Assembly: GCF_014695385.1 (NCBI RefSeq)
Contig: NZ_JACJOD010000014.1
Location: 186,001 to 250,000, forward strand
Source: Trichocoleus sp. FACHB-46
Lineage (GTDB): Bacteria; Cyanobacteriota; Cyanobacteriia; FACHB-46
Direction of reading: 5' to 3'
DNA length: 64,000 nucleotides
How positions within the stretch are numbered: position 1 is the first letter of the stretch; every line of letters starts with the position of its first letter. The notes under the pieces are model-generated. The model was not told where the DNA came from. It was given only the letters and a program-made list of their open reading frames with translations, and ran no database searches. A program made the position numbers and the translations under genes. This document shows positions 7,664 to 36,489 of this stretch, in pieces.

Positions 7664-8046
7664 GGGGCTGCACTGGTTTCGACGTGATGGCGAAAGCTGC
7701 TTCGTGATGCAGGTCGAGAGTGAGTCACCTCTCGCAAATCAATGGCTCAAAACAAGTACATGCGAACAACATCGTACCCTTTGCTCGTAAAGCAGCTGCT
7801 GTTGCCTAAAAACCTCTCATAGGTTCGAGCGTCTGTAGTTTGACTCCGTTAAGGATTACAGACAAACCCCCAACGGATGCGTTAGCTAGTTACCTCTGGT
7901 TGACTGGTTAGCAAAGACTTTACCAGAGCATCCCATTGTCCGGGATAAAGGACAGTTCCCGCTTCGAGGATCAGAGAAGCTAAACCTGTGAACGATCGGG
8001 GGGTCAATACCCGTTGCGGACAGCGGTTCGATTCCGCTCAGCTCCA
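7664..8046 (+). ncRNA. ssrA: Transfer-messenger RNA (tmRNA)
   Basis: This RNA frees stalled ribosomes and tags the unfinished protein for degradation. The 5' end GGGGCTGCACTGGTTTCGAC and the 3' end GGTTCGATTCCGCTCAGCTCC are the classic tmRNA termini and pair as a seven-base acceptor stem with one G-U pair. The discriminator A is at 8046 and CCA is not encoded. The internal reading frame gives the tag ANNIVPFARKAAAVA and then TAA at about 7764-7811, a typical cyanobacterial tag. The length of 383 bases is normal, and the molecule is one-piece, not permuted. A terminator follows 15 bases later. Confidence 0.97.
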
Positions 8047-8060
8047 CTTCTAATTTTAGT

Positions 8061-34798: not shown

Positions 34799-34871
34799 GA
34801 ACCAAAATCTGGGGTCGCAGTTTTGTGGCAAAAACGTTTATGTCAATAAACAGTGATATGATTGCCCTACT

Positions 34872-35010
34872 CATGCGGTTCTAGTGAGGAACAGTCACTA
34901 GAGGTAACGGGGAAAGTTCGGTGCAAATCCGACGCTGTCCCGCAACTGTGAAGGAATTTTTTGCTCAGCTAAGTAAAAATTTCCTAGCCAGGATGCCCGC
35001 CGGTGGGAAG
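34872..35010 (+). promoter_or_regulatory. Cobalamin (vitamin B12) riboswitch
   Basis: The conserved core is present in order: GGTAACGGGGAAAGTTCGGT, GTGCAAATCCGACGCTGTCC and CGCAACTGTGA (B12-box helices), a variable stem, then GCCAGGATGCCCGCC. This is the RF00174-type element that represses downstream genes when cobalamin is plentiful. The cbtB start codon lies 30 bases after the last core element, so control probably acts on its ribosome binding site or on early termination. It predicts that cbtB and the His-rich gene are on when B12 is low. Confidence 0.95.
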
Positions 35011-35039
35011 TTCTATAGCTCTAAAGTGCGAGGTACACC

Positions 35040-35237
35040 ATGAGAACTGCATCCCTAACTTCTGGCTCACTTCAGCAACAGGCCGTCCGTTGGACACTTT
35101 CGGTGCCTGTGCAAGCCACCTTATTTACTTCCTTGTGTGCGTTGACGCTCTGGACGGTTTACTTCTCAAGCTATCCTGCCGCCCACAACCAAATGCACTC
35201 GCTACGCCACCATACCTTGAGTGTTAGCTGCCACTAG
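35040..35237 (+). CDS. cbtB: CbtB family cobalt transporter subunit
   Basis: The 65-residue protein has one membrane helix (about residues 22-42) and a C-terminal tail with four His plus a final Cys-His (AAHNQMHSLRHHTLSVSCH). That is the pattern of CbtB, the small subunit of the CbtAB cobalt uptake system, whose tail is thought to bind cobalt. The cobalamin riboswitch directly upstream supports the assignment, because cbtAB is a known B12-riboswitch target. The usual CbtA partner (five membrane helices) is missing; a different His-rich protein follows instead. Confidence 0.85.
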   Translation: MRTASLTSGSLQQQAVRWTLSVPVQATLFTSLCALTLWTVYFSSYPAAHNQMHSLRHHTLSVSCH

Positions 35238-35295
35238 AATTTCGCGCTTCGTCAGAATTCTTATCTCTCAGCATCCTCAAAGGTTCTAAGTCATA

Positions 35296-36489
35296 ATGGC
35301 AAAAATTAAACTTGTTTCGCTCCTCAGCTTATTAGGGCTGCTAGGAGCTTTAGGCTATGGTGCGGTTGGGCGATCGCAACTCCTACAGCCATCGGTGAAG
35401 CTGGCAACTGAACCATCTACCACTCAGTTACTACCCTTTGAGGCCGATGCCGCGCAGCCCCAAAATCCAGTGCAAATGACGCTACAAGCGCTGGATGCAA
35501 CCGGGAAGCCACTGCAAAATGCCAACATTCATGTCAAACTGCTAACCCCGCCTACGAATCCTTGGTTGCCCACCGACTTTCCCATCGTTGAGGGCACCAA
35601 GCTACTGGATTTGGCGGCGATCGCCGCTAACGGTCAACTGCAATTTCAGCAAATGCTCCCGATTCGCGGTGACTACCAACTCCAAGTCGAAGTTATACCA
35701 ACCGTTGCTAATGCCTTTGCACCTTTCCAGCAAACCTTAACTTTGTCCGTCGCCGAAAATTCAATTAAATATCGCAACTTCGCCATCCTAGCCGTGATTT
35801 TGGTGGCAGTAGGTTTCGGCGGCGGTTGGGTGATTGGTGGCAAGCAAGAGTTGCAACCTGGAGAAATTGCCCCTCAGCGAGTTCGGCTGTTGCTGAGCGG
35901 AGCCATTGTGGTCGCGATCGCTGCTCTGCTAGTCGTCAATATTAGTGCTGAACTGTCTCACTCCCATGAGCACTCTCACGAACATGAGCATAGAGATAAG
36001 GCGATCGCCGCTTTGCCGTCTAGTGCGAACACGCAAGGCTTGGAGGTGAAGCTGTTAGGGCATCACCATGCCATGGTAGGCGAACCTGCTGAGTTGGCTG
36101 TACAGGCGATCGATGTGAAAACGGGTCAACCAGCAACTGATGTGGTGTTTGACATCAAAGCCAAATCTTTAGAAGCAGGCTGGGTTGCATTTACTCACCA
36201 AGCAACACCCAATAACCAAGGTGAATTTGCTTGGCAACAACAGTTTTTTGATGGCGCACCCCATCAAGTGGAAGTTGAAGTCACACCCAAACCCGGTGCG
36301 GCTCGTCAGTTTTCATCCTTCAAAGTGGCTCAAGAGATTGAAGTTGAGGGCGTAGAGCCACCGTTGCGATCGCGCCTCCTTTCCCTTGGCTACTTTATCA
36401 GCATTTTGCTGGTCGGCTTAGGACTGGGCTTATGGATACAACAACGGCGACAACCACGATCGCTCCTTGACAGCAAGGCGTTAAATTAG
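35296..36489 (+). CDS. His-rich membrane protein downstream of cbtB, likely cobalt-related
   Basis: I recognise no named family. The 397-residue product has an N-terminal signal or anchor (residues 7-26), an Ig-like extracytoplasmic domain (about 50-155), two membrane helices (162-180 and 198-216), a His/Glu stretch (222-232, with six alternating His: SHSHEHSHEHEH), a second Ig-like domain with HHH at 256-258 (about 245-345), and a last helix (363-380). The two Ig-like units resemble each other, which suggests duplication. It starts 58 bases after cbtB and shares its B12 riboswitch. I infer a role in periplasmic capture or delivery of cobalt, or as a substitute for CbtA. Confidence 0.6.
   Translation: MAKIKLVSLLSLLGLLGALGYGAVGRSQLLQPSVKLATEPSTTQLLPFEADAAQPQNPVQMTLQALDATGKPLQNANIHVKLLTPPTNPWLPTDFPIVEGTKLLDLAAIAANGQLQFQQMLPIRGDYQLQVEVIPTVANAFAPFQQTLTLSVAENSIKYRNFAILAVILVAVGFGGGWVIGGKQELQPGEIAPQRVRLLLSGAIVVAIAALLVVNISAELSHSHEHSHEHEHRDKAIAALPSSANTQGLEVKLLGHHHAMVGEPAELAVQAIDVKTGQPATDVVFDIKAKSLEAGWVAFTHQATPNNQGEFAWQQQFFDGAPHQVEVEVTPKPGAARQFSSFKVAQEIEVEGVEPPLRSRLLSLGYFISILLVGLGLGLWIQQRRQPRSLLDSKALN

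Follow-up and report, generated by a model that had tools for sequence, protein, structure and literature searches.

A cobalamin riboswitch-associated cbtB unit in cyanobacteria with a two-Ig membrane protein in place of CbtA, a probable cobalt-acquisition module

Organization of the cbtB locus

The window, i.e., the whole stretch of 64,000 nucleotides from Trichocoleus sp. FACHB-46 (genome G000, contig 14) that was analyzed, contains a cobalamin riboswitch followed after 22 nt by cbtB and, after another 58 nt, by a gene encoding a protein of 397 residues, here called the partner. The following features are distinguished:

34859..35017, + strand: cobalamin riboswitch aptamer (RF00174), found with cmscan
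35027..35033, + strand: TGCGAGG with the Shine-Dalgarno sequence, 13 nt 5' of the cbtB ATG, probable expression platform
35040..35237, + strand: cbtB, 65 aa (PF09489)
35296..36489, + strand: two-Ig partner of CbtB, 397 aa, no Pfam or NCBIfam family (domains from AlphaFold2)
35959..35991, + strand: codons of six alternating His (residues 222-232), by direct reading; segment predicted to be periplasmic and disordered

In line with the full riboswitch claimed by a preceding sequence-only reading, cmscan of the window returned RF00174 over its full length (positions 1-189) at 59.8 bits (gathering threshold 31.5; E 2.6e-12). The assignment is based on this Rfam match rather than on the folding energy of the leader, for which the minimum-free-energy z-score is weak (-1.7). 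Of 26 loci with a riboswitch for which the start of cbtB was assigned, 21 show the TGCGAGG motif, at 10-17 nt before this start, while it is missing in a Nostocales subclade lacking the riboswitch, and translational control of cbtB via this combined motif and Shine-Dalgarno expression platform is probable. TGCGAGG might pair with CCCGCA, which is invariant in the aptamer, but no specific pairing is backed by covariation. The unit is flanked by an ABC exporter gene on its upstream side and by rplU and rpmA, which encode ribosomal proteins, on its downstream side (names by reading), and a promoter-like site is present between the partner gene and rplU. Due to this gene order and the site preceding rplU, riboswitch, cbtB and partner gene look like a two-gene transcript. 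Elsewhere in the window, a tmRNA gene is encoded at 7664-8049 (RF00023, 121 bits).

CbtB and the two-Ig partner protein

Assignment of the 65-aa protein to CbtB, as previously claimed from its His-rich tail, is confirmed by a profile match to PF09489 (29 bits at a cut-off of 27) and by comparison with archaeal CbtB (hhalign probability 95%, E 3e-8). It possesses one membrane helix and a C-terminal His/Cys tail, in which H49, H53, H57, C64, and H65 are invariant in an alignment of 23 homologues and R56 is kept, too.

The 397-aa partner, on the other hand, did not match any Pfam or NCBIfam family, and its homologues gave only weak Pfam matches, Ig-like domains among them. An AlphaFold2 model computed with 22 homologues (mean pLDDT 81.6) predicts transmembrane helices at residues 3-23, 156-180, 194-219, and 357-385 and beta-sandwich Ig-like domains at 33-152 and 243-351, in agreement with the two Ig-like domains and four membrane segments read earlier from the sequence. 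Hence, the order of elements is helix, Ig domain, and helix, followed by helix, His loop, Ig domain, and helix, with the loop (residues 216-238) being disordered in the model (pLDDT <50). If the N-terminus is inside, this helix order would place both Ig domains and the His loop in the periplasm.

Direct reading of the sequence also verified the six alternating His at residues 222-232 and HHH at 256-258. The proposal that these His runs define the protein did not hold, however, as the loop following the third helix is variable among homologues, with one to seven His, rich in Met and His in some members and short in others, and HHH is confined to the closest relatives; the runs are lineage-specific and not a conserved feature of the family. 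The invariant His of the partner is H323 within FFDGxPH, and H224 is nearly invariant. Other invariant or nearly invariant positions are E219 and the motifs (T/S)DFPxVEG and PIRG. An origin of the partner with internal duplication of a TM-Ig module is only suggestive at an hhalign probability of 33%. Foldseek and VIA-align searches against the PDB retrieved only generic Ig or macroglobulin-like folds, with coverage mainly of the second Ig domain, and no function was deduced from these structural matches. Transthyretin matches (E 0.16) were dismissed as chance. A protein described in the context of Zur and ZepA (PMC10957091), considered as a possible earlier description of the partner, is a different protein.

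Obligatory pairing and absence of CbtA

In 292 cyanobacterial genomes, the partner was found in 17, and CbtB in the same 17 plus one (G174), in which an intact cbtB is located behind a riboswitch and a 57-codon remnant is left of the partner gene. CbtA (PF09490) is encoded in none of these 292 genomes and, as expected from the earlier reading, was not found by profile search in the host genome either. Searching 84,980 species with an alignment of the partner gave 145 relatives, of which the best 80 were kept, all of them cyanobacterial, whereas a single-sequence search of genome contigs did not retrieve any relatives. In 78 of these 80 loci the partner gene is preceded by cbtB; the remaining two lie at contig ends, where less than 290 nt are available upstream. 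Likewise, cbtB is present on 14 of 15 partner-bearing plasmids, the fifteenth holding only a fragment of the partner gene. Thus, the pairing of CbtB with the partner is obligatory and a phylum-wide rule in cyanobacteria. The possibility that the partner represents a divergent CbtA is not supported, in view of the lack of PF09490 matches for all 22 homologues, an hhalign probability of 0.1% against an archaeal CbtA and the presence of two Ig domains.

Outside the Nostocales, 37 of 39 loci have a riboswitch 5' of cbtB (11/12 whole-genome loci, 17/18 from a second collection, 8/8 plasmid copies, and G174), the exceptions being L025 and L075. Together with the pairing and the absence of CbtA, this supports the initial proposal of a B12-controlled two-gene unit with a partner other than CbtA that recurs next to cbtB and the riboswitch in cyanobacteria. 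On plasmids outside the Nostocales, the riboswitch has been retained in all eight copies inspected, although most of these are embedded in metal islands, which argues for B12 control being under selection and moving with the cbtB-partner pair.

In a tree of 70 partners obtained by a quick method, 21 riboswitch-less Nostocales proteins form one clade with full SH-aLRT support, and 36 out of 36 members of this subclade in the genome collection are without a strong riboswitch. Loss within this clade would be the simpler reading, as riboswitch copies flank it on both sides of the midpoint-rooted tree. Besides, Nostoc-type genomes show decayed riboswitches before cbtB at 12-45 bits, compared to >80 bits for intact ones (L104, L027, L030, L062, L028, L031, L056, L035, L052, L103, L041, and L051), a graded series apparently representing fossils of a lost riboswitch. 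An objection raised in the sequence-only reading, namely that most homologues might neighbour copper or zinc genes and lack a riboswitch, fails in this form but is half true: one Nostocales subclade is indeed riboswitch-less and adjoins an FTR1-multicopper oxidase cluster or an importer of the CbiMQO type, and metal islands do contain the plasmid copies, but the non-Nostocales copies among the latter retain the riboswitch.

Genomic context and link to cobalt

Only one other riboswitch candidate was detected in the host genome. It precedes the cobaltochelatase gene cbiX, scoring 30.7 bits, just under the threshold, and 32.7 bits in the sister genome G002. Candidates 5' of cbiX are also found in G001, G234, and the genome of L045. 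At L108 (1127-2185 and 2220-2398), cbiX with a His-rich C-terminus is encoded behind a sub-threshold cobalamin riboswitch, and the same holds for G001 and G234.

HupE of the host is encoded without a riboswitch as part of a nitrile hydratase cluster and appears to be dedicated to this nitrile hydratase. The cluster (L120:1453-5596, G000:C37) shows the order CobW gene, nitrile hydratase, HupE, and the alpha chain bears the active-site motif CTMCSC, which is that of the cobalt type. CbiM is not encoded in G000, G001, and G002, and G000 shows one modest NicO match (69 bits). The genome G001 belongs to the same genus and consists of one contig; neither HupE and CbiM nor NicO/NiCoT was found in it, yet it still possesses the riboswitch-cbtB-partner unit as well as riboswitch-cbiX. 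This leaves the cbtB-partner pair as apparently the only recognised dedicated cobalt importer candidate of G001, in a count that covers HupE, CbiM, and NicO/NiCoT, next to which general permeases such as CorA, ZIP, or Nramp may be present, and that takes the absence of CbtA from the 292 other genomes.

Several neighbours of the pair have a bearing on its role. In a minority of Nostocales loci (G148, G123, L069, and L105; L071 is the G148 genome), cbiM-cbiQ-cbiO follows the partner gene on the same strand, with CbiM of G148 being fused to a PDGLE domain. Directly 3' of the partner gene in G068, a hupE lacking the first 83 residues (L121:1392-1835) is probably a pseudogene and the trace of a riboswitch-cbtB-partner-hupE operon. 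In 11 loci, a DUF1636 gene follows, giving the order cbtB-partner-DUF1636, while on an archaeal plasmid (L161) the order is cobN, ATP-binding protein, cbtB, cbtA, and (2Fe-2S) ferredoxin. Hence, the partner occupies the slot of CbtA.

An FTR1-multicopper oxidase cluster is the neighbour in about 30 Nostocales loci. One and the same chromosomal slot, between a multicopper oxidase gene and an mqnC-like gene, is filled either by a riboswitch-less cbtB-partner pair or by the other type, oppositely oriented and accompanied by DUF1636 (L032, L041, L042, L050, and L091 versus L037, L048, L063, and L086), as would result from replacement of one by the other in situ. At L099:7131-7889 and in five similar loci, a second unannotated protein with the motif KGGxxIPLxxCNC and no Pfam family is encoded convergently to the partner gene; it is probably membrane-anchored and secreted and in some loci located beside a cytochrome-biogenesis-like membrane protein. 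Plasmid copies of the pair are found among genes for P-type ATPases, Nramp, ZIP, ArsR/SmtB, MerR/MerF, and RppAB, and P-type ATPases of the CPC type are also among the chromosomal neighbours. A cobalt exporter such as CoaT is expected to carry SPC, and the neighbouring ATPases were set aside as evidence for cobalt due to their CPC motif.

Proposed function

The unit is best explained as a B12-repressed module for cobalt acquisition, a CbtAB variant with an unrelated protein replacing CbtA, to which we assign a probability of roughly 0.6. This is based on the retention of the riboswitch, the riboswitch before cbiX, the CbtB-partner pairing, the absence of CbtA from 292 genomes, the importer count in G001, the location of the host's own HupE in the nitrile hydratase cluster, the cbiMQO and HupE neighbours and the occupation of the CbtA slot. 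Moreover, cbtB of Pseudomonas denitrificans is repressed by B12, with a 43-fold effect for CbtBA (PMC8123684). Some cyanobacteria probably get cobalt for B12 via this unit. Arguments against it are the total of just five membrane helices with no recognised transporter fold, the variable ligand loop, the riboswitch-less Nostocales subclade beside FTR1/multicopper oxidase or RppAB genes, and the plasmid neighbours in metal islands, which point to a broader handling of metals.

According to the mechanism proposed, scarcity of cobalamin would cause the riboswitch to leave the Shine-Dalgarno site of cbtB free, while B12 would switch the unit off. CbtB, with its single helix and His/Cys tail, and the partner, with four helices, two Ig domains and the metal-ligand loop, would then be made and could form a complex in the inner membrane with their ligands directed toward the periplasm. 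This complex may capture Co2+, the presumed metal, and move it into the cell, where corrins are synthesized. If a genome encodes no other dedicated importer, transport of the ion is most likely accomplished by the pair alone, and where a CbiMQO-type importer or HupE adjoins, the pair may feed that permease. Going beyond this, one might tentatively regard CbtB plus the two-Ig protein as a self-sufficient, hitherto undescribed cobalt importer family, in part spread by plasmids as a riboswitch-cbtB-partner cassette and in some cyanobacteria the sole dedicated cobalt importer.

Among the alternatives, a family of more general metal specificity is conceivable, though less convincing than the cobalt module, in which riboswitch copies handle cobalt and the Nostocales copies without a riboswitch have taken on another metal, nickel or iron. 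The uniform lack of a strong riboswitch in that subclade, the CbiM-PDGLE fusion next to the pair, the RppA/RppB or FTR1-multicopper oxidase clusters as neighbours and the occurrence of one copy of each type in some genomes (L051 and L059) are consistent with such a split, whereas the invariant residues of the partner are common to both types and synteny may be inherited rather than functional. For the window, this explanation is compatible with a cobalt module. It is likewise conceivable, at a slightly lower probability, that the pair is accessory only, capturing and handing over metal at the periplasmic side similar to CbiN or NikK/NikL and always serving another protein as permease, be it HupE, CbiMQO, or one of general type (ZIP, Nramp, or CorA). 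The Ig domains and ligand-rich loops at few transmembrane helices, cbiMQO directly downstream in several Nostocales, the HupE remnant in G068, and the proximity of Nramp or ZIP genes in many plasmid loci would fit this role, but most loci are without a dedicated Co/Ni permease beside the pair, and G001 lacks HupE, CbiM, and NicO altogether. Finally, a role in efflux or tolerance as part of heavy-metal islands, with the riboswitch being incidental, as the plasmid context and the CPC-type ATPases might suggest, is highly improbable, since the riboswitch is kept on every inspected non-Nostocales plasmid copy, a B12-repressed exporter makes little sense and the host copy is located between ABC exporter and ribosomal-protein genes on the chromosome.

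If the cobalt-acquisition module proves true, it would be a candidate cobalt source for B12-making cyanobacteria without HupE and CbiMNQO, and CbtB would be the constant part of a modular system with an exchangeable second subunit. Being marked by a riboswitch and present in culturable strains, the gene pair is testable.

Comparison with known systems

In Anabaena PCC 7120, the riboswitch operon alr4027-btuB2-btuFCD is induced about 100-fold by cobalt starvation (PMC10878165). It resembles the unit described here in having a cobalamin riboswitch but serves corrinoid uptake, and neither cbtB nor the partner is described in it (PMC10878165). The alr4027 product is probably a DUF1636 protein, judging from an RT primer encoding GESGGQ. 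A cyanobacterial HupE cobalt permease under control of a B12 riboswitch (PMC4284471) shares regulator and presumed purpose, but the partner is an unrelated protein, and in contrast to that system the HupE of the host belongs to the nitrile hydratase cluster and lacks a riboswitch. NikK and NikL, accessory components of the NikKMLQO ECF nickel importers (PMC2667541, PMC2868824), are comparable as additional proteins of the membrane or periplasm that are associated with Co/Ni import, and cbiMQO adjoins the partner gene in some Nostocales. The partner, however, pairs with CbtB and not with NikM, and it does not match such families in Pfam.

In a published survey, cyanobacteria are listed without any cobalt transporter of the CbtAB type (PMC2667541, Table 2). 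CbtX was not chosen as a name for the partner, since another predicted cobalt transporter bears it (PMC2667541). Current annotations of the proteins read "CbtB domain-containing" or "hypothetical". The closest relative is CbtAB itself (PF09489 plus PF09490), a predicted cobalt transporter that is likewise a two-gene unit with a B12 riboswitch and a His-tailed CbtB of one transmembrane helix. The layouts also correspond in that some partner loci have a DUF1636 gene at the position of the (2Fe-2S) ferredoxin gene of the archaeal unit. CbtAB differs in the second subunit, as CbtA is missing from the 292-genome sample and the partner, with its two Ig domains, shows no detectable similarity to an archaeal CbtA. 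The system is real and still without a name, and it is best read as a B12-repressed module for cobalt acquisition with an unrelated two-Ig membrane protein substituting for CbtA.
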